From Sodalis ligni (GTDB taxonomy: Bacteria; Pseudomonadota; Gammaproteobacteria; Enterobacterales; Enterobacteriaceae): 64,000 nt of DNA. The notes beneath the pieces are model-generated. The model was not told the DNA's origin. It worked only from the letters and a program-made list of their open reading frames with translations, and ran no database searches. How positions within the stretch are numbered: position 1 is the first letter of the stretch; every line of letters starts with the position of its first letter. Made by a program: the position numbers and the translations under genes. The stretch spans positions 4,774,337 to 4,838,336 of the forward strand of contig NZ_CP075169.1 in assembly GCF_016865525.2 (NCBI RefSeq). Reading direction: 5' to 3'. Of the stretch, positions 24,026-60,798 are shown one piece after another.

Positions 24026-24029
24026 TGTG

Positions 24030-34188: not shown

Positions 34189-34238
34189 ATGATTCTGTGT
34201 AAATGCCTTTCCTCAGAAGTGACCGTCCAGGCGGTCAC
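33067..34238 (-). pseudogene. Group II intron reverse transcriptase/maturase, truncated and frameshifted
   Basis: Reverse transcriptase domains: RRVELPKPNGGVRVLGIPTV, SYGFRPGRNAWQAV, VVDMDLEKFFDRVNHD, GMPQGSPLSPLLSNL and the catalytic CRYADDCNIYV. A single missing A near 33416 breaks the frame after TTETVQK; it then continues ALKAVIDGLAPVLRGWISYF into the maturase domain X (VRRKLRCLLWRHW) and ends FQCCK at 33067. The N-terminal third is missing; the first codons lie in the IS256 terminal repeat. Confidence 0.85.
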
Positions 34239-35627: not shown

Positions 35628-35879
35628 TCAAAAACCCCTAACATTGAAAATCTTCGCAATAATTATCCCACCACCCGCCACGGAACCGCCATAGACACCA
35701 ACTTTAACGGCTAACATTATATAATCCCCATCCAATTCATAAATACCTGTAATTATCCCATTAAAAAATACAAAACCCAGTAGACTAATAACGCTTATTA
35801 TAATCATCCCAATAACAAATGCACAAAATATAAATATACATTGTGGTAATAAGACATTGTACTGAGAATATTTATTCAT
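35628..35879 (-). CDS. Small membrane protein, candidate CDI immunity protein of the main locus
   Basis: 83 residues with two long hydrophobic segments (QCIFIFCAFVIGMIIISVIS and VGVYGGSVAGGGIIIAKIF). Its ATG overlaps the cdiA stop by 8 nt (GATGAATAA), and it precedes a strong terminator, so by position it is cdiI. AT-rich relative to cdiA. No family recognised. Immunity by an inner-membrane protein suggests the cognate toxin acts on or enters through the inner membrane. Confidence 0.7.
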   Translation of the reverse strand: MNKYSQYNVLLPQCIFIFCAFVIGMIIISVISLLGFVFFNGIITGIYELDGDYIMLAVKVGVYGGSVAGGGIIIAKIFNVRGF

Positions 35880-38800: not shown

Positions 38801-41800
38801 CCGGTAATGCCGATATCGTTGCCCGCCGACAGATTGACGCTGTCGCCGCTCAGCAGGCTGCCCAGTTGATGGGTGTCGTAGTCCTCGTCCACTGTATGGG
38901 TGCTGGTTGAGGAGAACAGGCCGCTGCTGGTATGGGTAGCTTCATCATAGTGATAATCGCTTTCCAGTGCGGTATTGAGGGTGATGTCGCCGCCGGCGCT
39001 GAGGCTGATGGCGCCCCTCGCCTGCGCCTGGGCGGCGGTCAGGGCGATATCCTGGCCGGCGGAGAGCTGGATGCCGCCGCCGGCGGTGATGGCGGTGCCC
39101 TGCTGGCCGATGGTTTCGTCGATGTTTTCGCTGTTGTCGCCGTGATTTTCGCTGTAGATGTCGCTTTGCAGGGCATTCAGGGTGATATCGCCGCCGGCAT
39201 TGAGGGCGACGCTATCGGCGGCGTTCAGGGAGGCTCCCTGACTGGTGACATCCTGTCCGGCCGTCAGGCTGAGGTTGCCGCCGCTGTCCAGGCTGCTGAC
39301 CACGCCGCCAAGGGTATGATCCTGGCTTTCCTGGCCGGATCGGCCCGATTGGCTGGCGTTTTGCGCGCCGGTAGCGGTGGCCAGCAGATTGAGGTCGTTG
39401 CCCGCCGCCAGTTGCATGCCGGCGCCGGAGGTCAGGCCGCTGCCGTTCAGGGTGAGATCATTGCCGGCCAGGATGCTCAATGCGCCGCCGGCGGTGATAT
39501 TGCTGGACTGTGCCGTGGTTTGCCGGCTGTCGGTGGTTTGCCGGCCGGTCAGGGTGCTGTCGGTAGCGGTTTGGCTCAGGGCGGCGATGGTGACGTCGTT
39601 GCCCGCCGCCAGAACGGTATCGCCGCCGGATGCCACGCTGGCGCCGATCACGGAAATATCCTTGGCGGCGGCCAATACCAGATCGCCGGTGGCGCTGATG
39701 CTTGCCATATCGCCGGTTTCGGTGGCGGTGAGCGCGGCCTGGTTTGGGCCGCCCTGGGCGGGCGACGTCAGGCTGCCCGCCGACCAGGTATCGCTTGCGG
39801 TCTGGTTGACGATACTGCCGTTAAGGCTGGTAAGGCTTATGTTGCCGCCCGAAATGGTGGAACTGAGATTGCTGATATTGTTCAGCGCGGTGAGATCCAG
39901 ACTGCCGTCGGATTTCAGCAGCCCGCCGTTTTGATTGGTTATCTGGTCCTGACTGGTTATATCAAGCAATGACACCGCGGTGACCGCGCCGCTGTTGGTG
40001 ATGGAACCGGCGCTGGCCAGCCCGACCTGCTGAGCGGTGATCACGCTGCCCTGCAGGTTGGTTTCGTCCGCCTGGGACAGATACAGCTGCGGCGCCAGCA
40101 CCGTTTGGCCGTCGACGGTGATCGGCACATACCAGACAATACTTTGCGTCAGGGCGGCCACCTGAGCCGGCGTCAGGCTGACGCCGAACTGCAGGTTTAA
40201 CGATTGTTGTTCCGACGCCGCGTTGTCCAGCAGGGTTTGCATCTGCTGTAAATCGGAACCGACGCCGTCGATATATCGCTGGCCGGTCTGGCTTATCACC
40301 GCGTTGTCGACATATTGGGTGTCAAACTCCGCGTCGCCAAGGAACTGGTAATCGGTATCGGCATTCAGGTTGAGTTTATCCAACAGATAGGCCGAACCTT
40401 CAAATTGCTGTTCATTGGTCAACTGGCTACTAGTTTCCACCGTGGGGCTGGTGGCGGGGGGCTGTCCCAGCAGGCTGTTTAAATCATTGAATACCGAGCC
40501 ATTCACCTGACCCAGCTGCGTCAGTTTGGGATTGGCGGTAATCAGGTAGTGACTGCCGGGTTGGCTGTTGATAACAAACAGGCCGTCATTACCGGCGGGC
40601 AACGGGTAATCCGCCAGCGGATTCTCGGTCAAAGGTTGCAGGCCGGCGGCAATGGCAGCGCTCAATTGCGCCGGGGTCAGGGTGGCGAGCGGCGCGTCCG
40701 GTCCGGCGGCGGCGACGAGGGATTTGGTTCCGCCATTGGCGGCGCTGAGGCCCTGAGCGCTACCGGCGGCGCTGCCCTGGTTAAGGGCCAGACTGCCGTT
40801 CTGCCCGCCATTCACCGTCTGGGGATCCAGCACGCTGCCCGGCAGGGTAAAGCCGGCGTCGGTGGCGGCCAGTTGGCGGCTGCTTTGCTGTGACTGGCCG
40901 GCCAGCGCATTAATGGCGGTCAGCGAAGGCGCGGTCAGTTGATGGGTAATGCCGCCGATATCCGGCGCCACCTGGGTGTTGCTGATGTCCTGCGAGAAAC
41001 TGGCGCTGATATAACCGCCGGCCTGGATCAGCGCGTTATAGTTTTGGCCGCCGGCGGTGTAGGCATAGGTCGGCGCGCCGACGGCGGTGTACGCGATACT
41101 GTCCGAGGTGTAGCGATCCGCGAAGCGGTCATCGCTGGTGAAATAGGCCGGGGCTTCATCCAGGGTCAGCATGGGGGGATCGATCTCATCGCCGGGGGTG
41201 GTATCCAGCGGCGCGTAGTGGTACTGCTGATATTCGGTGGTGGTCCCTTCCTGATAGGAAAGGTTGTTGAGGCTAGTGCCGGACAGGGCGATGTTGCCCC
41301 CGGCCAGGATGTCGGAGGCGATGTTGTTCAAACTGCCGGCATAGCCGGCGATATTTCCGCCGGCCACCAGCCGTCCGGCATTGCCGCCGGAGGTTACGCT
41401 GAAGGTGGTTTCGGCGACGGCGATGTCCTGAACATAAGCGCTGGCATAAGGAACATACCAATAGGTGGTGACATAGGAGCCGCCGCCGCCGTGGCCGGGG
41501 CTGCCGCCGCCGATGGTGTCGCCGTAATCGCTGACGCCGAGGTCTCCCGGCTGGAACCAACTGGCGGGGATTAGGATCGACGCGCCGTTGACCCAGGCGG
41601 GCACCGCCAGCGTGGCGTCGGTTTGGGTGACGCTGAATCCTTGCCGCTGATTAAGCAACATTTCGGTGTTAAGGGTGATATCGCCATTTTGGGTTTCGAT
41701 ATCGCCGGAGCTATTGACTATCTGGCTATTGGCGTCGCCGGCGGCGTCCCGTTGCATCCACAGGCTGTTGCCCGCCAGGATATCGCCGCTGATGTTTTGG

Positions 41801-44800
41801 ATGCTGTCCGCCAGCAGTTGCATATTGCCGCCGGAATACAGCAGCCCGGTGTTGGTCAAGGTGCCTGCGGCCTGCAACAGCAAACTTCCGAGGGTACCGA
41901 TAAAACCCTGGTTGGTGATACTGTTGTTACTGGTCAGTGTGACGGCGCCGCCGGATTGCAGGCTGCCGCCCGATGGCTGATTGAACGTCGCGGCGGCCAC
42001 CGACAGGCCGCCGTTGCCGGTCACCACCTGCCCGCTGTTGGTGAAGGTGCCGCCGGCGGTTAACTGCACGGCGTTGCCCTGTAAGGTTCCTTGCTGATGG
42101 AAATCGCCGTCGGCATTCAGGGTCAGGGTTTGGCCCGCCGCCAGCAGGCTGGTGAAATCCAGCGCGCCGGTGATATGGCCGTTGAGGTTGCCCAACGCCA
42201 GGAATTGGCCGTTTTGTTGCAGGCTGTCGCTGGTGAAGCTCAAATCCTTGGCGCTGTAGATGCGTCCGCCGCTCTGATTATTGATGGCGGTGGCCTGCAA
42301 CGCCAGGGTGGTTAATCCCAGCAGCGTGCCGTTATTGGTAAGAGTCGTGCTGTTGATGACGGCCCGACTGCCCTGCACCGTGCCTTGGTTGCTAAAGGCC
42401 GGTGCCGTCAGTTGCAGCAGATCCCCCGCCAACACGGTGCCGCTATTGCTGAACTGGCTGCCGCTATAGGTAAGCTGCTGCGACTGGAGCCAGCCATCGT
42501 TGGTCAGTTGATTCGCCGCCAGGGTGGTTTGACCGCCCGACAATATCTGTCCGCTTGCCAGATTGTTTAATTGCCCGGTCAGAGTCAGGCCCAACGTCTG
42601 ATTACCCTGCATTGTGCCGCTGTTGTCGAGAGCGGTGCCGTTAACGCTGACATCCCCGCCTTGCACAATGCCCTGGTTGGTGATGTGCGCCGCCCGCAGT
42701 TGCAACTGGTCCGCCCCCAGCAGGCTGGCGCCGGCGGTATTGACGAAATTCCCCGTCAACTGCAGATCCAGCAGTCCGCTGCCTTGCAAAGTGCCGCTGT
42801 TGGTCAGGCTGCCGGCGGATAACCGCAGTTGTTGGGCTTGCAAGGTGCCGGCGTTGCTGAAAGTGGCGGCGCTGAGCACGGCCTGTTCGCCGGCGGCCAG
42901 CACGCTGCCCAGTGCGCCGGAATAGCCATTAAGCAGGGTGAGCATCACCTGCCCGGTGCCTTGCATTATTCCCTGGTTGGCGGCGCTATTGGCGTTGAGC
43001 GCCAAGGAAGCGGCTTGCCAGAGACCGCTATTGGTAAAATCGGCGGCCTGGATTTGACTGGCGCCGTTACTCAGCAACTGGCCTTGCGACTGATTTTGCG
43101 CCGAGCCGGTCAGGGACAGCCATAAGCCGCCGAGGCCCGCCAGCACGCCGCTGTTATCCAGGCTGGCGGCGGAAATATTCCATTGTTGCGCCTGGGCAAA
43201 TCCGCTATGGGTGAACTGACCGGCGGTCAGCGTTCCGGTGCCGTTGGTCAGCAGCTTGCCGCTGCTTGACAGGGTGCCGTCCAGGGTAAGCGCGAGTCTT
43301 CCCAGCCCGGTCAGGCTGCCGTCATTGTCCAGCGCGCCTCCGGTCAGGGTCAGGGTTTCGCCCTGCACCTGACCGTTATTGACGATCTGCTCTCCTTGCA
43401 GGGTGATATCGCCGTTGGACAACAGCTGTCCCGTTAGCAGATTGTTTAGTTGGCCGCTACTGTGAACAGTCAGGCTGGTCAGCCCGGCCATGGCGCCGCT
43501 GTTATCCAGACGATCGGCGATGATGTTCAGCACTCCCGCCTGCCACAGGCCGGCCGTGCTGATGTCCTGCGCGCTCAGCGCGGCGGTGCCGTTGCTTAAC
43601 AACCGGCTGTCCGCGCCGTAGCTCTGCGCGCCGTCGGTAATGACGGTCAATCCCTGAGTGCCTTGCAACTGTCCCTGATCATCCAGGGTTCCCGCCGTGG
43701 CAGTCAGCGTACCGCCCTGCATTAAGCCCTGATTGCTCACCGAACCGGCGGCGATATTCAATAGAGAGTCGGTCAGCACTTGTCCGGACGCCAGGTTGTT
43801 CAACGCGCCGGTCAGAAAGACATCCAAACCACCGGGACTGATCAGGGTACCGCTGTTTTGCAGTTGATCCCCCTGTACAACCAGGCTTTGCCCTTGCAGA
43901 CTGCCCTGGTTGTTCAATTGCGCCAACTGCAGCGCTGTGGCGCCGCTTGAGATGATCCCGCCCTGGTTGTTCAATACGCCGACAGCGACGGGAGTGGTGG
44001 CCGATGCCCATGCTGCGCTGTCTTCCGGTTGTCCCAGCCGCAGACTGAGCTGGTTATCGCCCTGGATATGACCGCTATTGTCAAGCTCGCCGGCGGTAAG
44101 CTGCAGCGAGCCGGCCTGCAAGACGCCGGCATTGGTTATCGCCGCCGCCGTCAGCGTGGCCGGACCGGCGCCAAGGATCCGGCCATCACTTTGGTTTTGC
44201 AGAGTGTCAAGCAGCGCCAGCGTCAGGCCGTCTTGTCCAAGCAGGGTACCGCTGTTATCCAGCGTACCGGCCGTCAGCTGTAATTGGTCGGCCTGCAACT
44301 GTCCGCTATTGACCACCGAGGCGGCGACGATATTTCCTGCGCCGCCGGCAAGGATATCCCCCTGATTTTGCAGAGACCCCAGGCTCAGGGTCAGACCGGT
44401 TGCCCCCGACAGGGTGCCCGAATTATTCAGGGCGTCGGCGGTCAGGGACAACAGACCGTTGGTGGCCAGCATGCCGCTATTGTTTACTCCTACGTCAAAG
44501 CCCAAGACCAGTTGGTCGCTGCCGGTTAATTCTCCGCTGTTGGACAGGCTCTGCCCGGTGGCGAAAACCTGGCCGGCCCGAAAAGTGCCGCTGTTTTGCC
44601 ACTGAGACGCTTGGATATTCGCGCCTTGGGCGATATCCATCGTCCCGCCGTTGGTGAGGGCCTGGCCGGAGAATGACAAGCTGTCCGCCGTAAACGCGCC
44701 GCCGTTGGCCAGTTGATCGACGTTTATAGCCAGATTGCCGCTGGAAGCGATATTGCCGGTGTTGTTCAGGGCTTGACCGCCGAACATGGCTTGATCCGCG

Positions 44801-47106
44801 CTGATATCGCCGCTGTTGGCCATAGCGCCGCCGTTGAATGCCAGCGCGCCGGCGACGTTTAGGGTACCGCTGTTACTAAGGTTGGCGCCGGTGGCCTGTA
44901 AGGCTGCGGCGGTGATGGTGCCGTCGTTGGTCAACCGGGCGGCGGAGAACCGGCTTAACCCGCCGCTCAACAGCGTTCCAATGTTGGACAGCGAGTCCAG
45001 ACCGTCGAGGATCAAGCTGTCAACAGCGCGCAATGTGCCGCTATTGGCGAAGGTACCGCCCCCTTGGTATGTGGTTTGGCCGCCGCCGGCGAGGCTGTCG
45101 CCGCCGGAAAATATCTGAGCGGCGGCGGATATACCGCTAACAGCGATTTGTTGACCTTGCAGCAGGCCCAGGTTGGTGAACTGCGGCGCCGTCAGCGCCA
45201 ATTGGCCTGCCGCCAGCAGATTACCGCTGTTTTGCCCGGAACCGCTCAGGGTAATGTTCATGTCGGCCAGGGAGTTGATGCTGCCGGCGTTGTGCCAATC
45301 GCCGCCCCGGTAATCAAGTGACTGGCTCTGCCAGGTGCCGTCGGTGGCGGCATTATCCGCCTGCACGCTAAGTCGACCGCCGGCTATCACACTCGCCGTC
45401 GCCTGCTGGGTCAGCACTCCCGCGGCGAGCGTGGCGCTGTTTTGCGCCTGCAGCCGGCCGGCATTGTTCAGCGAGCCGCCGGTAAAAGAGAGATCGGCGG
45501 CCTGAATCAGACCGTTATTATTCAGCGTCGCGGCGTTAATGCTCAGGTCGTTCACCGCCAGCAATTGTCCGCCGTTGGTCAGGGCACCGCCCTGGAAATG
45601 CAGCCCGGTTCCCGCCAGCATTTGGCCGTTCCACAGGCTGTCGCCGCCGAGATTCAGATTGATATTCTGCTGACTGCTGATGGCGGCACCGGTGCCCCCG
45701 GTGAGACTGGCGCCGGTTATCTTCAGATCCTGGTTGGATGCCAACTGGCCGTCCAGTTGCAATTGTTGGCCGCTAAGAGACAGCTGGCGCGCCTGCAACC
45801 GGCTGGCGGCATCCACCATCATGGCGCCGCCGGCGGTGACATTGGCAAGGGCGGCCGCCCCATGGCTACCGGTGAGCCTGACCGTCCCTCCGGTGAGAAC
45901 CAGACTGCCCTGTTCGCCAATATTCCCGGCGCTGTCGGTACCGGCGTCGAGGCTGGAGTTAGTGATGCCGAGAGCACCGGCGGCATTCAACTGCAGGTTG
46001 CCGCCAGCGGCCAGGGTAGCATTATCGGTTTCAAGATCCCCTTGGCTGCCAAGGGTCATGGCGCCCTGCGCCGCCACGTTGCCCCCCAGTTGCACACCGT
46101 CGCCGGAAGCGCTGAAATCACCTTGCGCCGAGGCATTATTCACCACCAGCTTGCCGGACGCCGACAGGTTGATATCGCCGGCGGCGGCGCCGTTGTTCGC
46201 CACCGCATTGGTCACGGTCAATGCCCCGGACGCCGACAGCGCAATGCCGCCGGCGTCGGCGCTGAGATTGCCCAGGTTAACGCCCACGCCTTTGTCGCTG
46301 GAAACCAGCCGGATGCTATTGGCGTACATGCCCCCCAGGGCGCCGGTATCCACCGCGATGGTCGGCACAGCGCCCGGAGCACCCAGCGAGGTGGCCTTGC
46401 CGGCGGCATCGATATGATTGGCCCCCACGGTGACGGTCAGATCTTTGGCATACAGGCCGGCATTGATCTGCGCCGCGCGGGCCAACAATGAGAAAGCATC
46501 GCTCTGACTGGCATCCAGCCCTTTGCCTTCAACGGTGATGGCGCCTTGGGTGACCTCCAGGGACTGCAGGTTGCCGTCGGTGCCGATAATGGGGCTACCG
46601 GTGGTCAGGGTGGCGTTCGGCGTATTGATGAAACCGCAGCCGTCGCAGGTAATGCCGTAGGGATTGGCCACCATGACGCTGGCGGCCTTGCCCGCCACTT
46701 CCATATAGCCCTGCAACCGGGAAGGATTGGCCCCCACCACTTCGTTGATGATGACTTTGGCTTCCTGGCCGGCCTGGAGGTTGGGATTGTTAAGGATTAA
46801 TCCGCCCAATTGGGTTTGGGTCAGTTTGCCGGTGGCGTTGTTGAGGATCAGCCCCTCCCCGCCAACATCGAACTGCTGGTATTTGTTATGGGAAAGACCG
46901 GCCTGGTTGGGAGTGGCGATATTCACCACCGGCACGCCGTTGCCGGCCGCCAGGGTCTGGGTGGAACCGTTGGCCGGGATAATGGCTACCGCCAGTGCCG
47001 GTAATAGCGGTTGCCAGGCCAGCAGGGCGACCAGCAAATAACTCAGCATAAGACGCCACGGTGAGGCCATGCCGGTAACCGGATTTTTCATCCCTGCCAT
47101 CCTCAT
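35872..47106 (-). CDS. cdiA: CdiA-type filamentous haemagglutinin/contact-dependent toxin
   Basis: About 3744 residues, uninterrupted. After a signal-like segment (LMLSYLLVALLAWQPLLPALA) comes the two-partner secretion domain with NPNL and NPYGITCDGCGF motifs (about residues 40-290), recognised by CdiB. A very long stretch of filamentous haemagglutinin repeats follows (many units of type NSGTLQG and LDNSG), then a Ser/Gly-rich beta region and the pre-toxin part ending in NAVENN (36532-36543). The last 219 residues are the variable C-terminal effector: AGTIGLAMLPGGAQVAAGIG, TDALIAGWVGGLTATSG, then GSSAATEIGTKILEKR. No known nuclease motif is visible. Starts 47106, 47100 and 47091 are all possible; MKNPVTGM at 47091 is well placed after AGGATGGCAGG. 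Confidence 0.93.
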   Translation of the reverse strand: MRMAGMKNPVTGMASPWRLMLSYLLVALLAWQPLLPALAVAIIPANGSTQTLAAGNGVPVVNIATPNQAGLSHNKYQQFDVGGEGLILNNATGKLTQTQLGGLILNNPNLQAGQEAKVIINEVVGANPSRLQGYMEVAGKAASVMVANPYGITCDGCGFINTPNATLTTGSPIIGTDGNLQSLEVTQGAITVEGKGLDASQSDAFSLLARAAQINAGLYAKDLTVTVGANHIDAAGKATSLGAPGAVPTIAVDTGALGGMYANSIRLVSSDKGVGVNLGNLSADAGGIALSASGALTVTNAVANNGAAAGDINLSASGKLVVNNASAQGDFSASGDGVQLGGNVAAQGAMTLGSQGDLETDNATLAAGGNLQLNAAGALGITNSSLDAGTDSAGNIGEQGSLVLTGGTVRLTGSHGAAALANVTAGGAMMVDAASRLQARQLSLSGQQLQLDGQLASNQDLKITGASLTGGTGAAISSQQNINLNLGGDSLWNGQMLAGTGLHFQGGALTNGGQLLAVNDLSINAATLNNNGLIQAADLSFTGGSLNNAGRLQAQNSATLAAGVLTQQATASVIAGGRLSVQADNAATDGTWQSQSLDYRGGDWHNAGSINSLADMNITLSGSGQNSGNLLAAGQLALTAPQFTNLGLLQGQQIAVSGISAAAQIFSGGDSLAGGGQTTYQGGGTFANSGTLRAVDSLILDGLDSLSNIGTLLSGGLSRFSAARLTNDGTITAAALQATGANLSNSGTLNVAGALAFNGGAMANSGDISADQAMFGGQALNNTGNIASSGNLAINVDQLANGGAFTADSLSFSGQALTNGGTMDIAQGANIQASQWQNSGTFRAGQVFATGQSLSNSGELTGSDQLVLGFDVGVNNSGMLATNGLLSLTADALNNSGTLSGATGLTLSLGSLQNQGDILAGGAGNIVAASVVNSGQLQADQLQLTAGTLDNSGTLLGQDGLTLALLDTLQNQSDGRILGAGPATLTAAAITNAGVLQAGSLQLTAGELDNSGHIQGDNQLSLRLGQPEDSAAWASATTPVAVGVLNNQGGIISSGATALQLAQLNNQGSLQGQSLVVQGDQLQNSGTLISPGGLDVFLTGALNNLASGQVLTDSLLNIAAGSVSNQGLMQGGTLTATAGTLDDQGQLQGTQGLTVITDGAQSYGADSRLLSNGTAALSAQDISTAGLWQAGVLNIIADRLDNSGAMAGLTSLTVHSSGQLNNLLTGQLLSNGDITLQGEQIVNNGQVQGETLTLTGGALDNDGSLTGLGRLALTLDGTLSSSGKLLTNGTGTLTAGQFTHSGFAQAQQWNISAASLDNSGVLAGLGGLWLSLTGSAQNQSQGQLLSNGASQIQAADFTNSGLWQAASLALNANSAANQGIMQGTGQVMLTLLNGYSGALGSVLAAGEQAVLSAATFSNAGTLQAQQLRLSAGSLTNSGTLQGSGLLDLQLTGNFVNTAGASLLGADQLQLRAAHITNQGIVQGGDVSVNGTALDNSGTMQGNQTLGLTLTGQLNNLASGQILSGGQTTLAANQLTNDGWLQSQQLTYSGSQFSNSGTVLAGDLLQLTAPAFSNQGTVQGSRAVINSTTLTNNGTLLGLTTLALQATAINNQSGGRIYSAKDLSFTSDSLQQNGQFLALGNLNGHITGALDFTSLLAAGQTLTLNADGDFHQQGTLQGNAVQLTAGGTFTNSGQVVTGNGGLSVAAATFNQPSGGSLQSGGAVTLTSNNSITNQGFIGTLGSLLLQAAGTLTNTGLLYSGGNMQLLADSIQNISGDILAGNSLWMQRDAAGDANSQIVNSSGDIETQNGDITLNTEMLLNQRQGFSVTQTDATLAVPAWVNGASILIPASWFQPGDLGVSDYGDTIGGGSPGHGGGGSYVTTYWYVPYASAYVQDIAVAETTFSVTSGGNAGRLVAGGNIAGYAGSLNNIASDILAGGNIALSGTSLNNLSYQEGTTTEYQQYHYAPLDTTPGDEIDPPMLTLDEAPAYFTSDDRFADRYTSDSIAYTAVGAPTYAYTAGGQNYNALIQAGGYISASFSQDISNTQVAPDIGGITHQLTAPSLTAINALAGQSQQSSRQLAATDAGFTLPGSVLDPQTVNGGQNGSLALNQGSAAGSAQGLSAANGGTKSLVAAAGPDAPLATLTPAQLSAAIAAGLQPLTENPLADYPLPAGNDGLFVINSQPGSHYLITANPKLTQLGQVNGSVFNDLNSLLGQPPATSPTVETSSQLTNEQQFEGSAYLLDKLNLNADTDYQFLGDAEFDTQYVDNAVISQTGQRYIDGVGSDLQQMQTLLDNAASEQQSLNLQFGVSLTPAQVAALTQSIVWYVPITVDGQTVLAPQLYLSQADETNLQGSVITAQQVGLASAGSITNSGAVTAVSLLDITSQDQITNQNGGLLKSDGSLDLTALNNISNLSSTISGGNISLTSLNGSIVNQTASDTWSAGSLTSPAQGGPNQAALTATETGDMASISATGDLVLAAAKDISVIGASVASGGDTVLAAGNDVTIAALSQTATDSTLTGRQTTDSRQTTAQSSNITAGGALSILAGNDLTLNGSGLTSGAGMQLAAGNDLNLLATATGAQNASQSGRSGQESQDHTLGGVVSSLDSGGNLSLTAGQDVTSQGASLNAADSVALNAGGDITLNALQSDIYSENHGDNSENIDETIGQQGTAITAGGGIQLSAGQDIALTAAQAQARGAISLSAGGDITLNTALESDYHYDEATHTSSGLFSSTSTHTVDEDYDTHQLGSLLSGDSVNLSAGNDIGITGSSVIGDDHVTLQAGNDITIAAATEEQSSYQLKETKTSGMFSGGGFGVTFGSTSMRDEIDQNGTTQSQSVSTIGATDGNVNIIAGGTAHLSEAQVIAGNNLNVVAGAITIDQGDDSLNRRESYEQKQSGLTLSLSSPITDALLTMDNLVDNASETSDNRMKALYGVEALHDGWAASQSKGVATQASQLANGNYDASVKLQISVGASQSSSLSTLAEQQAAGSTLSAGGDVNLVATGGNNQSGDLHITGSGITGDNVTLAANHDLILDAAASTSDQHNSSDSSGWNVGVSVSLGTSTGIGVFANGYMASDNADGSTTDFLNTRVNAQDQLSLSSGGDTVLEGAQALGDKIVANVGGDLTITSLQDTDEYQESQKSVSGGLSISFGTMPVSGSFSISGSSINSQYASVGAQSGLFAGDQGYDIQVGDHTQLNGAVIASTAAASDNQLSTGTLGWDAIQNAADYSATGYGFSAGAGGGASPFALPSLSDSQSGSASGTSSSAIADGTLTIRDAAGQQQDVSTLSHDTADANGHIDEIFDKEQVEQNLAFTQAVGQVSKDVVQDVLQYEATTVNDNKQQELQATPAYQQASAEQQQTMSAEVSKEVESDYGIGGTYAILGDAISGALAGLAGGDLTQAAAGGLAPYLSQVVKGVTTDPDTKQVNVAENALGHALVGGLVAYLQGNSAAAGAAGGAGGELAAEAIAYELYPDIATADLTEEQKQTISTLSTLAEALEGKVGGNKEEGEVTGADAGKNAVENNSLGGAAAGSGLGLWLGEIPDCDTECKAQLAGDIAQGNAKVSAHLAGTIGLAMLPGGAQVAAGIGSGANAAIQYAVDGEVSYTDALIAGWVGGLTATSGFGVTVGVNAVGGAASNAIKGDDPLTGAITSGLGAVGGYGIGKGAILGSNAIGKYATKGWNPKFDPNHLKYREVKGLMGISKEMSPSKIPGVAGNVGSSAATEIGTKILEKRVEKLKTQNDE

Positions 47107-47108
47107 TT

Positions 47109-48773
47109 TCACAGCACCACGCCAAGGCGGTAATAAACGGAAACCCGATCGGGCGCCAGCGAGCGGGGATACCCCAGCGGCCAGCCCACCGTGAATTGAC
47201 TGACGAAATAGCGATTGCTGCTGCTCAACCCCACGGCGGCGCCCCACAGGGTGCCGGCTGAATTGATATCCTGGCGATCGTGGCGAAGATACCCGGCGTC
47301 CAGCGCCGCCAGTGCGCCGATATCCCCCAGCACCGGTAATACCCTCAAGGGCCGATCGATTTCATTGCGCCAATAGCCGCCGTTATCACCGGACAGGTAC
47401 TGCTCTTTGAAACCACGCACCGAACTTTCGCCGCCGAGGGTCATGCGCTCGGCGCCGTATAACCGATCGGCGGTCCATTGCCCGGACAGGCTGGTGAGGT
47501 AAGTGAAATTGCCGGCCAGCGGCAGATAATAACTGGCGGTGGCGCCCCACTTGGTAAAGTCAATGGCGGGCTGTCCGTCGGCCTGGTAATCATTCCCCGC
47601 GCCCAGCCAAGGCATGCCTCGGCTGACGAAGGGCGATAGCGTCGCATATCCGCCCCACAGTTTCTGGCTGTGATTGACTCCCGCCGTCAGGCTGGTGAGT
47701 TCGTAGCTGCTGCTGTCGAGCCGGGTATCGTTGAGATTGTTGCGGCTGATGCGATGCGTCAATGCAAGCATGAGACCGGTTTTCATGTTGCCGTTGCGAA
47801 ACACCACACGGGACAGCGACAGCCGGTGTGCCTGGCTGTCGCCGGCGGATCGCCAGTCATAACCTTGCTGATAAAGGGTATTAAGATAATCGCTGTAGCT
47901 ATAGCTGTAATCCAACAGCCAGTAGCCGTACGGCAGACTAAAACCGGCCTGCACGCTGCGGGCATTGCGATCGCTGACAAACCCGCTGCTGCGGGAAGCG
48001 TTCAGAAACCATTGATCCGCCAGCCCCAGCGGGTTATTCAACGTTAGCGCCGTGTTCAACTGACCGACGCCGGTGCTTTTCTGGCCGCTGTTATCGAACC
48101 CAACGTTGAGACGTAAAGACTGCTCGCGGGCGGCTGTCAGATTTACCACCGAGTATCCCGGTCGGCTGCCCGGCTGAATGTCGATTTGTACCGGATCGCG
48201 GCGCAGCCGGTTAATCTGCTCCATGCCCTGCTCGATATCCCGCAGGTTAAGAATCTTGCCCTTTAGACCGGGAAACGCCATATGCAATAAGCGGGCATCA
48301 TGGTTTTCCAGGCGGATATCCTGCAATCGGCCTTCCATTACCGTCAGCCGCAGCGTGCCGCCGGACAAATCCTGCCCGGTGAGGAACGCCCGGCTGGTGA
48401 TATAACCCTGGGCGATATACCAGTCCGAAACCTGTTTCACCAGTAAATTGATTTGGCTTAACCCCGCGCATTGACGCAAATAGGGCGAGGTTAGCCGCTG
48501 ACGGACGGGCTCGGGCATCGTATCCGCCCCCAGCAGGAGAATCGTGTTGAGATGAAAACAGGGACCGCCTGGCGCGGCGCGGCGCGCCGGCGGCGCCGTT
48601 AACGGTATCGCCCACTGCAAGGCTTGCAGTTGCCGTCTGTCCTGATTCAATTGTTCCGTTTGCTGTTGTTGAATAACATCCCGATCGGCAGGGCTGATGG
48701 CTACCGCCCGTCCGCAGACACAGAGCAGACCAACCAGTACAAAGCCGATATTTACCGGCAAACGATGTTTCAT
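47109..48773 (-). CDS. cdiB: CdiB-type two-partner secretion outer-membrane transporter
   Basis: About 554 residues. Signal peptide MKHRLPVNIGFVLVGLLCVCGRAVA, a Gln-rich periplasmic helix, a polypeptide-transport-associated (POTRA) domain (INLLVKQVSDWYIAQGYITSRAF) and a C-terminal 16-stranded beta barrel with the conserved VRGF motif (SSVRGFKEQYLSGD) and terminal YYRLGVVL. It exports CdiA. Start at 48773 is chosen because the signal peptide begins there; the open frame continues 13 codons upstream. Two bp separate its stop from the first possible cdiA start. Confidence 0.94.
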   Translation of the reverse strand: MKHRLPVNIGFVLVGLLCVCGRAVAISPADRDVIQQQQTEQLNQDRRQLQALQWAIPLTAPPARRAAPGGPCFHLNTILLLGADTMPEPVRQRLTSPYLRQCAGLSQINLLVKQVSDWYIAQGYITSRAFLTGQDLSGGTLRLTVMEGRLQDIRLENHDARLLHMAFPGLKGKILNLRDIEQGMEQINRLRRDPVQIDIQPGSRPGYSVVNLTAAREQSLRLNVGFDNSGQKSTGVGQLNTALTLNNPLGLADQWFLNASRSSGFVSDRNARSVQAGFSLPYGYWLLDYSYSYSDYLNTLYQQGYDWRSAGDSQAHRLSLSRVVFRNGNMKTGLMLALTHRISRNNLNDTRLDSSSYELTSLTAGVNHSQKLWGGYATLSPFVSRGMPWLGAGNDYQADGQPAIDFTKWGATASYYLPLAGNFTYLTSLSGQWTADRLYGAERMTLGGESSVRGFKEQYLSGDNGGYWRNEIDRPLRVLPVLGDIGALAALDAGYLRHDRQDINSAGTLWGAAVGLSSSNRYFVSQFTVGWPLGYPRSLAPDRVSVYYRLGVVL

Positions 48774-49053
48774 GGGCCATCCCTGAATCTCGCCAACGTC
48801 AGCCGGCGGCAAAAATACGTTGTTATCTCTATAGATTTATAGGAGTTTCTATCGGCAGGGTTAAAGTGAACTTTATGATGTCGAGCAAAATATTCCCGAA
48901 CTTTAACCACATTTATGAATGGCTGACCGGAGGGACGGTTCAAGCTTATGAAAGGAGGTTCAAAAACGAAATAACGCTTAGACTCACCTAACGGAAGTCC
49001 GGGTCAATCGTAACCGACCCGCTTCAGCACATACCGGTAGGGCCGGCAGACAC
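48774..49053. other. Promoter-side region of the CDI operon
   Basis: About 280 bp with no gene. It should carry the cdiB promoter on the minus strand; an inverted motif GGGTTAAAGTG...CGAACTTTAACC (48862-48906) is visible, but no assignable promoter hexamers. Confidence 0.4.
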
Positions 49054-49974
49054 TCAGTCTGACTTGCGGCGAAACGAATCCAGAATCCTGTCGGTGACGG
49101 CACTGGTTTGCGCCGCGGCTTGAGTATCTCCCGGGCAAACGCCTAAGCCATTAAGATCGTCGACAATACTCTGGATAAACGGCTGCTGCACATGGATCGG
49201 ATTGGAGATATTGACCTCCTTCACCCCTGCCGACGTAACCAGGCGTATGGGTGAATCAGCAAAAAATTCGAATTCGATGCGGCCGCGCGTGCCGGTAATC
49301 TCCACGCGATCGGCATTATCGTGGCCCACATAACACCAGCTACCCACGCCAGTGACGCCATTGGCATGGCGCCAGGTCGCGGTGACGGTGTCTTCAACAG
49401 CGTAAACACCGCCACGGTTGCCGGCCTGACCATGTACTTCGCTGACCGGGCCGAACCAGAACGCGAGCATATCGAGCACATGCACGCCCATATCCAAAAA
49501 TTTTCCGCCCCCGGCCACATCGGCCCGCAAACGCCAGGGCAACGTCTCCGGCGACAGTTCTTCGGGCGCCGGTTTCTGACGCTGCAGAATGCTCACTGTA
49601 CACACAGTGCCGATGGCGCCCTGGTCAAGCCAGTCTTTCACCTGCAGGAAACGCGGCATGGCGCGACGGTAGAACGCCACATAGAGCCGAACACCGGCAG
49701 CTTGGCAGGCCGCCATCATTTCCTTGCATTCGTCGTAGTTCATTGCCATCGGCTTTTCCACGTACACGTGTTTGCCGGCAGCGGCAGCCTGCAAGGTCAG
49801 CGCCTTGTGTTCGGAAGGCGGCGTAGCGATATACACCGCATCAATCTCGGGATCGGCCAGCATTCAGTTGGTCACGCCCAACAGGGTGGAATGCGCAGCC
49901 TTGTAAAGCCCGGGTCCGCTTTTTACCTCGGTAACATCACCGCAGCCGATCATGCCCCAGCGAATCGTTTTCAT
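49054..49974 (-). pseudogene. Gfo/Idh/MocA-family oxidoreductase with internal deletion
   Basis: NAD(P)-binding sugar-type dehydrogenase. The N-terminus begins at 49974 (MKTIRWGMIGCGDVTEVKSG, with the Rossmann glycines) and runs to STLLGVTN followed directly by a TGA stop. The next codons, MLADPEIDAVYIATPPSEHK, resume the family at a position normally some 25 residues later. Thus the second beta strand and the helix after it are missing and a stop sits at the scar. The remainder to 49054 is full (YVEKPMAMNYDECKEM, the catalytic Lys region; GGKFLDMGVHVLDML). Probably non-functional. Confidence 0.85.
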
Positions 49975-50125
49975 GTGTTACCTAAGACTGTTGACTTATG
50001 CAATATAAGGTTGGCAGGACGTTCATAAGGATGATTGCCGCGACAATGCCTTAAGCACTCAATCGCGATGAACGATGGATTCTAGCAAAGACCGCCGACG
50101 AGTCCAACTGGCATAAGATACCGCC

Positions 50126-50206
50126 TCATTTTTTGACTTCATCCGTCGGTTTCATCATTTCAATCGCTTTTGAAGCCGGGAGCTTCCCTACTTGTTTCCC
50201 TGCCAT
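50126..50206 (-). pseudogene. Integrase N-terminal scar (copy b)
   Basis: Twenty-six codons, MAGKQVGKLPASKAIEMMKP then TDEVKK and a stop. Same leading residues and same upstream text as copy c at 51531-51716. A tyrosine recombinase N-terminus is indicated by the comparison with copy c, not by this fragment alone. Confidence 0.7.
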
Positions 50207-50232
50207 ACAGACTCCGTTATCATGGGCGCTGC

Positions 50233-50310
50233 ACTATACCCATCATCTTTAAGCAGCAGGTGCCTTGGCTGCGCTCGTTGCGCCGAATCAGTTACATACG
50301 TAAGCTTATC
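50233..50310. repeat. Partial ERIC-related element
   Basis: TATACCCATCATCTTTAAG, then GCCTTGGCTGCGCTCGTTGC and GTTACATACGTAAGCTTA resemble the left half and core of ERIC, but the right inverted repeat is lost. It separates the integrase scar from the first copy of the 113-bp mutS repeat. Confidence 0.5.
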
Positions 50311-50421
50311 GTGGGTGATGAACCTCATTCCTGAGTTTCCCCGCAGGCCAGCCGCGACGAGAACGACTGATACTTTGACCTGCGCCAGAAATTAAGATGC
50401 ATCGATATTTCTTGAGACACA

Positions 50422-50534
50422 GTGATAATTCATGAGAACAATCATCATCACTAACTTCATAAAAAACATAGAAATGGATATCATAACTCCATGAGTACAA
50501 CCGAAGATTTAGACAGCCATACACCCATGATGCA
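50422..50534 (+). repeat. 113-bp direct repeat, left copy, containing a duplicated mutS start
   Basis: Begins GTGATAATTCATGAGAACAA and ends CACCCATGATGCA. It differs at only a few bases from 51750-51862. It carries the mutS start region; from ATG 50491 it reads [14 protein letters not shown] and then diverges to a stop at 50559. Together with the right copy it brackets the Fic gene, as attachment-site duplicates do. Confidence 0.9.
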
Positions 50535-50711
50535 TTGGTGTGTTTTGATTGATATTTAATGATTATTTTTAGAAAACAAGGAAAGACTACACTTTAACCT
50601 ACATTTTTATAACCGATTGATTTATAAATCATTAATTTCAACCAGTCGAGTATAGCACTATAATTAAAGGCTGACGCTCTGGCAGTAACATCCGCAAAGT
50701 GGAATTCCCCA

Positions 50712-51329
50712 ATGAACCGATATGATGTTTCCAACAGCGAAGGAAAGTTTGCCGAAGGCTCTGGCGAACAGGTCTTGGCAAACAAGCTGGGGATTTCCAA
50801 CCCCGATGAGATTGACGGCGCGGAATTGGTTCTGTTGGAAAAATTTTATCAGACTATTTTTGAAGAGCAATTCCCCCTTGGGCGCATAACGGTTGCCATG
50901 ATAAAAAACTGGCATCGCCGCTGGTTAGAGAGCGTCTATGAGTGGGCAGGACAAGAAAGAACGGTGAATATCAGTAAAGGCGGCTTTATGTTTGCGCCTT
51001 CAGCCCAAGTACCGAAATTATTGAGTGAGTTCGAAACAAAATACCTCGCCAGATATACACCTTGCTCGGGGATGGACAAAGAGCAAGTCACTGAAGCGAT
51101 CGCCATTATCCACGTCGAGCTGGTACTCATCCATCCGTTTAGGGAAGGCAACGGGCGATTATCGCGGCTACTGGCTGACATTATGGCGGTACAAGGAGGG
51201 TTTAACCCTTTGAATTATCAAAGTTGGGAGCAAAATAAGAGCCAATACATATCAGCCATTCATGCAGGCATGTCCATGAATTATGAGACGATAAAATATT
51301 GGGTGAGAGAGGCGTTGGAAAACGCTTAA
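50712..51329 (+). CDS. Fic-domain protein on a small island
   Basis: 205 residues, a stand-alone Fic domain. Active-site loop HPFREGNGRLSR (about residues 138-149) has the catalytic His and the phosphate-binding Asn/Arg; the flap ERTVNISKGGFMFAP is typical. No clear inhibitory helix was seen in the same protein, so an antitoxin partner might be expected, but none is encoded beside it. Lies between two copies of the 113-bp repeat and just before integrase scar c. Promoter region upstream (50541-50711) is AT-rich. Confidence 0.9.
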   Translation: MNRYDVSNSEGKFAEGSGEQVLANKLGISNPDEIDGAELVLLEKFYQTIFEEQFPLGRITVAMIKNWHRRWLESVYEWAGQERTVNISKGGFMFAPSAQVPKLLSEFETKYLARYTPCSGMDKEQVTEAIAIIHVELVLIHPFREGNGRLSRLLADIMAVQGGFNPLNYQSWEQNKSQYISAIHAGMSMNYETIKYWVREALENA

Positions 51330-51530
51330 TCTCCCAGACGAAGATGGGCGAATTTTTGCGCTGGGCGTTGAGGACGCCTCAACTTGCTCCGAAGACCGGC
51401 CTGTTTCGATTGCCGTCGAGGTCACAACCGAACGGACAATCTGTTCACGCGAAGGTTTGGTATAAGATACCACCACTTTTTACTACTACTCATCACAACT
51501 CCCGTGCTGACAGCTTACCACAAGCACATA

Positions 51531-51716
51531 TTATAAGCTAAAACGATGCTGATGTGTCGGCATTTTGTCAGTGGAAACGAATGATTGGGATAAGGTCGAA
51601 CCGCAACCAACACGCAGGCCACGGTTTTCACCGGTATCAGCCTTATCTTTATCTGTAGGTTTCATCATTTCTATCGCTTTTGACGAAAGAGGCGTCCCCG
51701 CTTGTTTCCCTGCCAT
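51531..51716 (-). pseudogene. Integrase N-terminal scar (copy c)
   Basis: 61 codons: MAGKQAGTPLSSKAIEMMKP, then TDKDKADTGENRGLRVGCG and an unrelated tail. KADTGENRGLRV is the hallmark N-terminal arm of phage/island tyrosine recombinases of the P4-like group. The catalytic domain is missing. It points away from mutS, directly beside the right copy of the 113-bp repeat, the normal place of an integrase next to its attachment site. Confidence 0.75.
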
Positions 51717-51749
51717 AAAGACTCCGTTATCATGGGCGCTACGCTATAA

Positions 51750-51862
51750 GTGATAATTCATGAGAACAATCATCATCACTAACTTCATGAAAAACAGAGA
51801 AATGGATATCATAACTCCATGAGTACCACAGAAGATTTAGACAGCCATACACCCATGATGCA
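51750..51862 (+). repeat. 113-bp direct repeat, right copy, at the 5' end of mutS
   Basis: The intact copy, containing about 70 bp of leader and the first 14-15 codons of mutS (ATG at 51819). Its twin is at 50422-50534. Confidence 0.9.
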
Positions 51863-54381
51863 GCAGTACCTGCGCCTGAAGGCGCAGCATCCGGATATCC
51901 TGTTGTTCTATCGGATGGGGATTTCTACGAGATGTTTTTGACGACGCCAAACGGGCGTCGCAGCTGATGGATATTTCCCTGACCCGGCGGGGACAATCCG
52001 CCGGCGAGCCGATTCCCATGGCCGGCGTACCTTATCATGCGGTGGAGACCTATCTGGCCAAGCTGGTTCAGCTCGGCGAATCGGTGGCCATCTGCGAGCA
52101 AATCGGCGATCCTGCCCTTACCAAAGGCCCGGTGGAGCGCCGGGTGGTGCGGATCGTGACGCCGGGCACCTTGAGCGATGAAGCCCTGCTGAGCGAGCGC
52201 CAGGACAACCTGCTGGCGGCGGTATGGCATGACCAGCAAAGCTACGGTTATGCCACCCTGGATATCAGCTCCGGGCGTTTTCTGGTTTGCGAGCCGGCGG
52301 ATAGCGAGGCCATGGCCGCCGAGCTGCAGCGCACCAACCCGGCGGAGCTGCTTTATCCGGAGACCTTTTCGGAAATGGGTTTGATTGAGCATCGGCGGGG
52401 ATTGCGCCGGCGGCCGATTTGGGAATTCGAGCTGGAAACCGCCCGCCAGCAGCTCAATCTGCAGTTCGGCACCCGTGATTTGAACGGTTTCGGCATCGAG
52501 CGCGCCGTGCGGGCCCTGCGGGCAGCCGGCTGCCTGCTGCAGTACGCTAAGGATACCCAGCGTACCAGTCTGCCGCATATCCGCGCCGTCACCCTGGAGC
52601 GCCAGCAGGACGGTATCGTGATGGATGCCGCTACCCGCCGCAATCTGGAGTTGACCCAGAATCTCGGCGGCGGAACCGATAATACGCTGGCGGATATTCT
52701 GGATCATACCGTGACGCCTATGGGCAGCCGCATGCTGAAACGCTGGCTGCATATGCCCACCAGGGATATCGCCGTGTTGACCCATCGCCAGCAAACCATA
52801 CAGGCCCTGCAGGAGTGTTATGCCGAGCTGCAGCCCCTGCTGCGGCAGGTGGGGGATTTGGAACGGGTGCTGGCGCGCCTGGCGCTCCGCTCCGCCCGTC
52901 CCCGCGATCTGGGACGCATGCGCCATGCTTTTCAGCAACTGCCGGAAATCCATGCCGTGCTCGCCGGGTATGACAACGAACATATCCGGCTGCTGCTAGG
53001 GCAAACCGGGCTGTTTACCGACCTGAAAGAACTGCTGGAACGGGCGGTGGTGGAAACTCCGCCGATACTGGTGCGGGACGGCGGCGTCATCGCGCCGGGC
53101 TATAATGCGGAACTGGATGAGTGGCGGGCGCTGGCGGACGGCGCCACGGATTATCTGGACCGGCTTGAGCTGCGGGAGCGGGAACGTACCGGCCTGGACA
53201 CGCTGAAGGTGGGCTTCAACGCCGTGCACGGTTATTATATTCAGCTCAGCCGAGGCCAGAGCCGCCAGGCGCCGATCCATTATGTCCGCCGGCAAACGCT
53301 CAAAAACGCCGAGCGGTATATTATTCCGGAGCTGAAAGAGTACGAAGACAAGGTGCTGACGTCCAAAGGCAAAGCCCTGGCGCTGGAAAAGGCGCTTTAC
53401 GATCAGCTGTTCGATATGCTGTTGCCCCATTTGGCGGCATTGCAGCAAAGCGCGGCGGCGCTGTCGGAGCTGGACGTGCTGAGCAATCTGGCGGAACGGG
53501 CGGAAGCCCTGGATTATGTCTGCCCGACCCTCACCAGCGTGCCCGGCGTCAAAATCACCGCCGGCCGCCATCCGGTGGTGGAGCAGGTGCTAAGCGAACC
53601 CTTTATCGCCAATCCGCTGGCGCTGTCGGCCCAGCGGCGAATGCTGATTATTACCGGTCCGAACATGGGCGGTAAAAGCACCTATATGCGGCAGAACGCG
53701 CTGATTGTGCTGATGGCCTATATCGGCAGCTTTGTGCCGGCCGCACAGGCGGTCATCGGTCCGGTGGATCGCATCTTCACCCGGGTGGGAGCGGCGGACG
53801 ATTTAGCCTCGGGCCGTTCCACCTTTATGGTGGAGATGACCGAAACGGCGAATATTTTACATAACGCGACGCCGCAAAGCCTGGTGCTGATGGATGAAAT
53901 CGGCCGGGGCACCTCTACCTATGACGGGCTCTCCCTGGCCTGGGCCTGCGCCGAGAGCCTCGCCGGCCGCATCAAGGCCATGACCCTGTTCGCCACCCAT
54001 TATTTTGAGCTCACCCAGCTACCGGAAAAAATGGAAGGGGTGGTGAATGTGCATCTGGACGCGCTGGAACAGGGAGAGACCATTGCGTTTATGCATACCG
54101 TACAGGACGGCGCCGCCAGCAAGAGCTACGGCCTGTCGGTGGCGGCATTGGCGGGGGTGCCGCGGGAAGTGATTAAACGCGCCCGGCAAAAGCTGAAGGA
54201 GCTGGAAAACCTGTCTGTCCACGCCGCCACCGGTACAGTGGATGGTTCACAGCTCTCGTTGCTGCAGCCGGAGCCGGAAGAGATATCGCCGGTAGTGACG
54301 GCATTGACCGAACTGGATCCCGACGCGCTGTCTCCGCGCCAGGCCCTGGAGTGGCTCTACCGGCTGAAGGGAATGCTGTAA
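51819..54381 (+). CDS. mutS: DNA mismatch repair protein MutS, two single-base frame breaks near the start
   Basis: Recognises mismatches and small loops and starts repair with MutL and MutH. Start at 51819 reads [20 protein letters not shown] and FYRMG. The mismatch-contact motif should be GDFYEMF (Phe-Tyr-Glu), but ATGGGGATTTC lacks one G (near 51920) and TGTTTTTGAC lacks one T (near 51938). With both restored the frame joins the rest at 51967 ([15 protein letters not shown]). The remaining 800 residues are intact, including Walker [15 protein letters not shown] and [14 protein letters not shown]. Corrected length is about 854 residues, as in E. coli. As written, the main frame lacks the mismatch-binding N-terminus. 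Confidence 0.93.
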
Positions 54382-59226: not shown

Positions 59227-59852
59227 TTACGCCAGTTCCCCTTTAATCAGCGGCACGAAACGAACCGCTTCCACGGTTTCCACCAGATATTCGCCGCCCT
59301 GGCGGCGAACGGTGGTCAGGTCCTGGGTATCTTCCCCACCGGCAACACCATAATGCCGCCCTCATCCAACTGCGCCATCAGGGCGGAAGGTATTTCCGGC
59401 GGCGCGGCGGTAACGATAATGGCGTCGAAGGGTCCGCGGGATGGCCAGCCCAGCCATCCGTCGCCGTGACGGGTGGAGACATTATGCAGATCCAGCTGTT
59501 TCAGGCGGCGCTTGGCCTGCCATTGCAGCTTTTTTATCCGCTCCACCGAGCAGACATGCTGCACCAGGTGGGCCAGAATCGCGGTCTGATAGCCTGAGCC
59601 GGTGCCGATTTCCAAGACCCTGGAGGTGGGCTGCAGGCGCAGCAGCTCGGTCATGCGGGCGACGATATAAGGCTGGGAGATGGTCTGGCCGGAGCCTATG
59701 GGCAAGGCCGTATTATCGTAAGCCTTGTGCTCGAAGGCTTCATCGATAAAGCGTTCCCGGGGGACAGTTTCTATCGCCTGCAGCAGCCGCTCATCCTGGA
59801 TGCCTTGCTGCCTGAGTTGAGCTATCAGTGTCTGCGTGCGCCGGTTTACCAT
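59227..59852 (-). CDS. pcm: Protein-L-isoaspartate O-methyltransferase, one missing G near 59332
   Basis: Repairs isoaspartyl damage in proteins with S-adenosylmethionine. Starts at 59852 ([20 protein letters not shown]); [15 protein letters not shown] and [17 protein letters not shown] are the substrate and SAM motifs. After MVLPVG the frame needs one extra G (GTGGGGAAGAT should be GTGGGGGAAGAT); it then reads [16 protein letters not shown] and ends IKGELA at 59227, giving 208 residues as in E. coli. As written it stops early with a changed tail. Start overlaps surE by 7 bp. Confidence 0.93.
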
Positions 59853-60607
59853 TTCCCGCTGACCTCCGCTTTAGCCAGCCATGACGTGAGTACCGATTGG
59901 GCGGAATAGGCGGTCAAATCCACCTGCAGCGGCGTGATGGAGACAAAGCCTTGCTCAATGGCGGCGAAATCGGTATCGGGCCCGTTATCAAAGGTTTCCC
60001 CCGGCGGCCCGATCCAGAACATTTCGTGCCCGCGTGGGTCCCGCTGCGCGATGGCCTGATTGGCGGGATGTCGGCTGCCGCAGCGGGTCACCTTGATGCC
60101 CTTCAGTGAAGACAACGGCAGATCCGGTACGTTGACGTTAAGGATTTTACCGGTGCGCAGCGGCTCCTGCGCCAACGCCCGGATCAGGCGGCAGGCCACC
60201 ATGGCGGCGGTATCGTAATGTCGTTCGCCGTTGAGGGAGATAGCCAGCGCCGGGAACCCCAGATGCCGTCCCTCCATAGCCGCGGCAACGGTACCGGAAT
60301 AGATGACGTCGTCCCCCAGATTCGCGCCGGCATTGATACCCGATACCACGATCTCCGGCACCGGCCGCATCAGGACGTTCACGCCGAGGTAAACACAATC
60401 CGTAGGCGTGCCGGACTGTACCGCGATATCGCCGTTGGCGTGCTTAACCGTTCTTAACGGCATATCCAGCGTCAACGAGTTGGACGACCCGCTCCGGTTG
60501 CGATCGGGCGCGACAATCTGCACGTCGGCAAATTCACGCAGGGCAACCGCCAGCGTTTGAATGCCGGGGGCATGGACTCCATCATCATTACTTAGCAATA
60601 TGCGCAT
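59846..60607 (-). CDS. surE: 5'/3'-nucleotidase SurE
   Basis: 253-residue metal-dependent nucleotidase important in stationary phase. Start at 60607, [15 protein letters not shown], with the metal-binding DD at residues 8-9, and [20 protein letters not shown] with Asn/Ser ligands. The longer frame upstream is not conserved. Its end overlaps pcm by 7 bp as usual; translational coupling with pcm is likely. Confidence 0.96.
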
Positions 60608-60798
60608 ATCATGATTGGCTTTATTAATTATTAATAGTGAATAACGCGCCGTCCACCCATAGGACGCAAAAACCAGCCTGTTCCTCGAGGTTATCAATGA
60701 ACGGCAGCAGGCTGGGAATAAAAGCAATAATGGCATGAAACGCCACGGTGGTGAAGCCTGGAGTTCAGGCCGTTACGTAAAATTCGCCGTTGCCGGGA

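Follow-up and report, generated by a model that had tools for sequence, protein, structure and literature searches.

We analysed a 64,000-nt stretch of Sodalis ligni (contig NZ_CP075169.1, positions 4,774,337 to 4,838,336; hereafter, the window), in which two direct repeats carrying the start of the mismatch-repair gene mutS flank a fic gene. We consider it very probable that integrative islands attaching at the 5′ end of mutS once formed a tandem array here, of which the locus retains decayed remains. The original prediction, made from the sequence of the window, had also placed an island at this site and proposed that the gene is rebuilt upon integration; these two points hold, but its 113-bp attachment core, its single island and its example from Streptococcus (SpyCIM1) do not.

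Occupied and empty sites define a short core within mutS

Escherichia coli ET490 contains an island of ca. 19.5 kb at the start of mutS, with fic at one end and an integrase gene at the other, in the order ygbA, left junction, fic, an open reading frame (ORF) of 56 aa, defence genes, genes for AlpA, RadC and DUF2787 proteins, integrase, right junction and mutS; E. coli K-12 represents the empty site, with ygbA followed directly by mutS. The left junction of ET490 equals K-12 as far as ATGATGCA; identity to K-12 runs through MSAIENFDAHTPMM and is followed by TTGGTGTG. The right junction shows a different leader and a different gene start, rejoining a K-12-like mutS at the core. The unbroken identity common to both junctions is CCCATGATGCA, which with near matches extends to a core of ca. 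17 bp (CATACACCCATGATGCA) encoding MutS residues HTPMM; in this pair of strains the core forms a direct repeat at both island ends and occurs once in the empty site. These junctions bear out the use of the mutS 5′ end, including its first codons, by an enterobacterial island, but not a core of 113 bp. The latter is equally absent from the island-free genomes G001 and G005, of the same genus as the window, and G009, which display the neighbourhood recA, solute-binding protein gene, mutS. None of the three gave a match to a 216-bp query containing the repeated unit of the window, so that the single 113-bp copy predicted for an empty site is missing, and they hold the core alone, inside an ordinary mutS start.

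The integrase is present over at least 80 % of its length in 13 of 5,426 E. coli genomes; in 12 of them the core and fic are colinear with it, 10.5–22 kb from its far edge, and in the remaining one an insertion interrupts fic. Less than 80 % of fic is held by 25 of the 38 fic-bearing E. coli genomes, and one genome examined for such fragments had no mutS within 3.5 kb.

Organization of the locus in the window

The direct repeat of the window spans 114 nt (96 % identity), and directly upstream of it lies a second repeat block (50137–50238 and 51647–51748, 84 %) that corresponds to the integrase leader and first 23 codons on the minus strand. A 50-nt probe of the mutS start matched twice within the window, versus 0 expected from 100 shuffles, and the 114-nt unit has just these two real matches across the 6.44-Mb genome, six further ones being at chance level (14–21 nt, E above 4). 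The features of the locus are as follows:

50137–50238, minus strand: left integrase stub, with leader and first 23 codons (50206 down to 50137) and a stop soon after; 84 % identical to the right stub
50239–50347: insertion in the left arm, delimited by alignment with the intact arm of Sodalis sp. dw_96; we take it to be ERIC-like from its consensus
50348–50420: arm remnant of the left copy, after the insertion, from the same alignment with dw_96
50421–50534, plus strand: left repeat copy, consisting of the island leader and a MutS-like start (ATG at 50491, first codons); junction of two tandem islands
50518–50534, plus strand: left exchange core, CATACACCCATGATGCA, followed by the island end TTGGTGTG
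50584–50620, plus strand: left-end (P′) arm, with an ACCTACA arm-type site at 50597–50603, spaced as in other islands
50712–51329, plus strand: fic, for a Fic/DOC protein of 205 aa with motif HPFREGNGRLSR (PF02661, E 1.7e-19); common left-end gene of the islands
51326–51495, minus strand: convergent 56-aa ORF, overlapping the fic stop; frameshifted in the window
51588–51594: deletion junction; ca. 26 kb of cargo and most of the integrase gone with respect to Sodalis sp. dw_96
51594–51748, minus strand: right integrase stub, with codons 1 to ca. 41 and leader; a region of ca. 125 bp of the arm, with arm-type sites, is deleted behind the stub
51749–51862, plus strand: right repeat copy, with island leader, ATG (51819) and first codons now serving as the mutS start; core at 51846–51862
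51819–54381, plus strand: mutS, beginning with an island-type start and frameshifted by one base each near codons 34 and 40
23947–24026, minus strand: third integrase stub, adjoining a gene of ca. 399 codons (22727–23908)

The near-identical direct repeats with the mutS start, and the Fic gene between them, were thus correctly recognized in the original prediction, as was the N-terminus of a tyrosine recombinase beside the right copy, which from 51716 down to ca. 51594 aligns with the first ca. 41 codons of full-length integrases (its 61-aa ORF had no Pfam match). Nevertheless, an integrase stub accompanies the left copy as well as the right one. In the left copy, the 182 bp between the two repeat blocks are partly arm sequence and partly insertion, and the MutS-like start reads as a micro-ORF of 22 residues (50491–50559). 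As judged from these alignments, each repeat copy represents the arm on the integrase side of an island, comprising a 5′ stub of the integrase gene, a leader, the ATG and the first codons of MutS; two tandem islands meet in the left copy, and the right copy joins mutS. A match of 50109–50132 to the start of the 56-aa ORF was dropped as too short.

The start of mutS travels with the island

Locus L079 and E. coli VREC0864 are 100 % identical both in the integrase and in the last 70 nt before the core, and 82 % identical over 900 nt of mutS past the core; E. coli strains ET490 and VREC0864 are 98 % identical in mutS and 72 % in the last 70 nt before the core. The first of these pairs combines a fully conserved integrase and start with a divergence of 18 % in mutS immediately behind the core, and we conclude from this sequence comparison that the leader and MutS codons 1 to ca. 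10 travel with the island, in agreement with the predicted rebuilding of the gene. Over 231 pairs of 22 loci, which are not independent of each other, the similarity of the leader correlated better with that of the integrase (Spearman 0.71) than with that of mutS (0.36), and the same was true for the last 70 nt before the core (0.38 versus 0.06). In relatives, the mutS frame stays open through the core.

The site and its core, the geometry, the empty sites, the swap of the mutS start, the tandem arrays, and the loss of cargo and integrase in the window can all be read from the alignments. As to mechanism, the tyrosine integrase of 425 aa probably catalyses the exchange and would recombine a core of at most ca. 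17 bp encoding HTPMM. The attP site, between the integrase gene and the core, contains the island's own leader, start codon and first ca. 10 codons of a MutS start, and integration replaces the native leader and start of mutS with those of the island. The native start remains at the far end as a micro-ORF of ca. 20 codons, as a rule followed by fic. The rebuilt mutS would presumably be expressed from an island promoter; the att leaders of the window and ET490 showed no match to a consensus promoter.

The integrase contains the domains Arm-DNA-bind_3, Phage_int_M and Phage_integrase, and the alignment of two E. coli integrases and that of dw_96 displays the tyrosine-integrase signature R...HxxR...H...Y (R277, H367, R370, H393 and Y402, which we assume to be the catalytic residues). 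Arm-type sites are abundant, with 33 in 16 leaders against a mean of 0.01 over 200 shuffles, and an ACCTACA site is situated at +61 or +73 in 13 of 17 left ends. Class I Fic toxin-antitoxin systems combine a toxin with the motif HPFx(D/E)GNGR and a small partner with an inhibitory helix. The Fic of the window carries the Fic motif, and its dw_96 homolog matches solved Fic structures. The convergent 56-aa ORF is intact in dw_96, G003 and ET490 and, with no match in Pfam or NCBIfam, is a candidate antitoxin; together with Fic, it may stabilize the element. Among ten cargo proteins picked from three islands, four from ET490 strongly match models for type I restriction or Septu, and one from dw_96 matches a TIR/SpbK model. 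No conjugation genes were found among the annotated genes of two E. coli islands.

Distribution of the integrase and of the left ends

A GTDB scan identified 26 integrase loci, several with partial genes, in Klebsiella, Enterobacter, Kosakonia, Phytobacter, Pantoea, Lonsdalea, Sodalis and others. The TPMM codons of mutS lie 107–270 bp from the start of the integrase match, divergently, in 22 of them and at 2.3 kb in one more; the remaining three do not have them there, one being cut off (L090), one lying elsewhere (L091) and one being a tandem junction (L098, from Phytobacter ursingii), in which an integrase stub is joined to a second left end. In a survey of the family, integrase matches appeared in 34 of 392 genomes and 26 of 154 genera. 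As anticipated in the original prediction, tyrosine integrases were found next to mutS, in 25 of the 30 loci examined, including all 13 full-length matches above 700 bits. No mutS start was in range at locus L115.

A pattern for the left end (CCNATGATGCATTGGTG) occurs in 17 of the 392 genomes, including that of the window, and its reversed control in none. In all 17, a MutS start can be read in frame until it reaches a stop codon encoded by the island. A fic gene follows in 11 (nine whole and two partial), five are of other types without fic, and G008 has a fic-type end sequence with no fic beside it; an integrase or its remnant lies on the same contig in the right geometry, 1.8–54 kb away, in 11 of the 17. 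Loci L138, L143, L146, L149 and L150 are left ends at the mutS core with no fic within the 1.5 kb examined, four of which share one end sequence unlike the fic type, perhaps from a distinct island type.

A second integrase family uses the same core

In genome G353, mutS is situated ca. 660 bp from invH; in G408, a flank of the G353 type (87 % identical) is followed by 12.5 kb and then by mutS (95 %). Positions 1–672 of G353 match the left flank of G408 and 647–891 the right one, overlapping by 26 bp at and just past the core, and by this alignment the two form an empty/occupied pair for a second family at the same core. InvH was found in all five sampled genomes of genus g70, and in six of the 392 genomes in total, and from this gene g70 is presumably Salmonella-like.

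The integrase of the G408 island (485 aa) is 26 % identical to the first one over 151 residues and has matches in 24 of 382 genomes. Taking one row per genome, 23 of the 24 have a MutS-like start in range, although at least two of these (G199 and G320) are junctions with other DNA and not mutS itself. The start is of the DKD type (e.g., MNESFDKDFSNH) in 21 of the 23, the exceptions being G376 and G320 (decayed, KESIDTDFASH), versus none of 26 starts of the first family (one of them a tandem junction; 4 of 30 loci were out of range), a difference with a Fisher value of 6e-12, uncorrected for kinship. In the five genera with both families, the MutS start follows the integrase, except for the decayed G320 junction. 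In G287, which has MNESFDKDFSNH, a 173-aa integrase remnant adjoins mutS. Two left ends of the first type (G358 and G244) have a native start of the DKD type, as if a later island had entered behind an older start. Genome G320 (L120, L184) has a tandem junction with traces of both integrase families.

Decay of the islands in the window

Positions 50420–51588 correspond to the fic end of the dw_96 (G002) island and 51594–51739 to its integrase end (in aligned coordinates, 50647–51588 to 59717–60662 of G002 and 51594–51739 to 86649–86794). The islands of the window are dead, with only integrase stubs left and ca. 26 kb of cargo lost relative to dw_96. Genome G003 underwent its own collapse to fic plus an integrase stub, and a short leader lacking the arm region is found in the right copy of the window and in two copies in dw_96. 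The repeats of the window are 96 % identical to each other, but 86 % and 79 % to their two dw_96 counterparts, which suggests exchange between tandem copies.

The mutS gene starts at the ATG in 51819, the listed ORF from 51967 being too short, and the loss of single bases at two points disrupts its frame. These losses are probably errors of this one-contig assembly, because alaS (2379–5002), an essential gene, and pcm (59230–59855) are likewise frameshifted by single missing bases and because runs of at least four equal bases show six single-base losses versus one gain in the window relative to G002 and G005; we thus did not accept mutS as a true pseudogene.

Alternative explanations

A simple tandem duplication of the mutS 5′ region, with no integrase involved, would account for two direct copies 1.3 kb apart beside truncated integrases. 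We give it almost no credence, since the segment between the copies is the end module (fic and the convergent ORF) that occupies the same place in the dw_96 and ET490 islands with a full integrase, an integrase stub is present in both copies, the left end is common to 17 of 392 genomes and relatives have intact islands at the same core. That two copies flank one segment would also agree with a single island in which the 113 bp are attL and attR with a long core, as originally predicted. This we hold to be very improbable: the left copy has an integrase stub and an arm of its own in front of it, the 113 bp are missing from the island-free genomes, and the E. coli junctions have only a short core in common, so that the repeats are better explained as integrase-side arms of tandem islands than as the two ends of one. 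Mosaic mutS starts could also have spread by homologous allele exchange, with the islands as passengers. A high exchange at mutS is stated in the available text of PMC7232297, and the greater likeness of the window repeats to each other than to those of dw_96 indicates that homologous exchange between arms probably occurs; as a general explanation, however, it is very unlikely, because the switch falls at the same core in aligned loci, five genera show a start type that goes with the integrase family, and the comparisons of empty with occupied sites are clean.

Several observations weigh against an array of islands with mutS as their target. The window lacks any complete integrase and its right arm lacks arm sites, and the native, outermost left end of the array was not found, the genome search yielding just two copies. 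Among the 18 E. coli matches, five cover ca. 30 % of the integrase, and one of these, upon examination, adjoins dhaR and not mutS. Of the 30 integrase loci examined, four lie out of range of any mutS start and another (G003) adjoins a tandem junction instead; also, a related integrase from Budvicia (L091, 62 % in its best segment) adjoins another gene, and the integrase clade may hold other targets. Four of the 17 left ends (G309, G292, G221 and G244) come from genomes without an integrase match at E 1e-30. Lastly, the similarities of integrase and mutS are themselves correlated (Spearman 0.51).

Relation to known systems

SXT/R391 elements supply a new gene start to their target. Like the mutS islands, they insert, by means of their integrase, in the 5′ end of a conserved protein gene, which is prfC according to the available text of PMC4344509; they differ in this target and in being conjugative and of ca. 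100 kb, whereas the mutS islands are of about 2–54 kb with their core in mutS. The SpyCI islands of Streptococcus pyogenes also occupy the 5′ end of a mismatch-repair gene, although the accessible part of PMC3430984 places SpyCIM1 between mutS and mutL, within the 5′ end of the latter gene and not in that of mutS as originally predicted; they are phage-like, silence mutL and excise with growth, whereas the mutS gene studied here retains a start in frame, which the island supplies. Prophages of Pseudomonas, in turn, sit between mutS and cinA and not in mutS, as far as the available text of PMC2647930 goes. The mutS islands share the domains Arm-DNA-bind_3, Phage_int_M and Phage_integrase with islands having P4-type integrases, a label that we presume applicable to the mutS-targeting integrase. 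P4-type islands are usually found in the 3′ ends of tRNA genes, in contrast to the 5′ end of a protein gene here.

The fhlA-mutS region, which also contains SPI-1, was described in 2020 as an island hotspot for which no integration site was apparent (PMC7232297). According to the same paper, S. flexneri has two integrases between ygbA and mutS, and an S. arizonae island located between invH and mutS contains integrases as well. The mutS islands lie in this same place and now supply an attachment core: with a sequence of ca. 17 bp inside mutS as the target of at least two integrase families, the hotspot acquires a testable mechanism. For SPI-1 itself, no second core was found at the far end in five InvH-bearing genomes with up to one mismatch. 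The main text of a paper on E. coli defence islands (PMC10121019) does not mention mutS, ygbA or fhlA, nor do the main texts of PMC12884075 and PMC10936790 mention mutS. Our literature searches for mutS as an enterobacterial attachment site found none, the TIGER island tables being outside their scope.

Mobile islands therefore swap the leader and N-terminus of a mismatch-repair gene, and the cargo of relatives includes anti-phage defence genes. It is conceivable, though rather doubtful, that unrelated integrases throughout the Enterobacterales commonly dock at the start of mutS, with the leader and MutS residues 1 to ca. 10 being an exchangeable island-borne module. Each island would then bring its own mismatch-repair control, the native leader being cut off; gain and loss of defence-bearing islands would reset the mutation rate or its stress control, and the native mutS promoter would pass to the fic end of the island.

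Other features of the window

The gene of ca. 399 codons beside the third integrase stub also exists in Sodalis sp. dw_96 (79 % identical), where it is likewise located next to a stub, and the ORF at 22724–24025 was ruled out as a full integrase, being this other gene. On the mutS side of the stub there is a transposase sequence that we take to be IS3-like, and a second, longer Fic protein (21537–22601, 354 aa, with a helix-turn-helix) adjoins the stub. The oxidoreductase gene of the Gfo/Idh/MocA family at 49054–49980 looks like a true pseudogene, since a stretch present in dw_96 is missing and there is a stop in frame. The window further contains a fragment of a toxin end with VENN and Ntox25 (27150–27830), a reverse transcriptase domain protein adjoining a Mutator-family transposase (33408–35421), and a two-partner secretion pair, consisting of a filamentous haemagglutinin-like protein of 3,791 aa and a ShlB-type transporter (35872–48812), with counterparts in Sodalis sp. 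dw_96.
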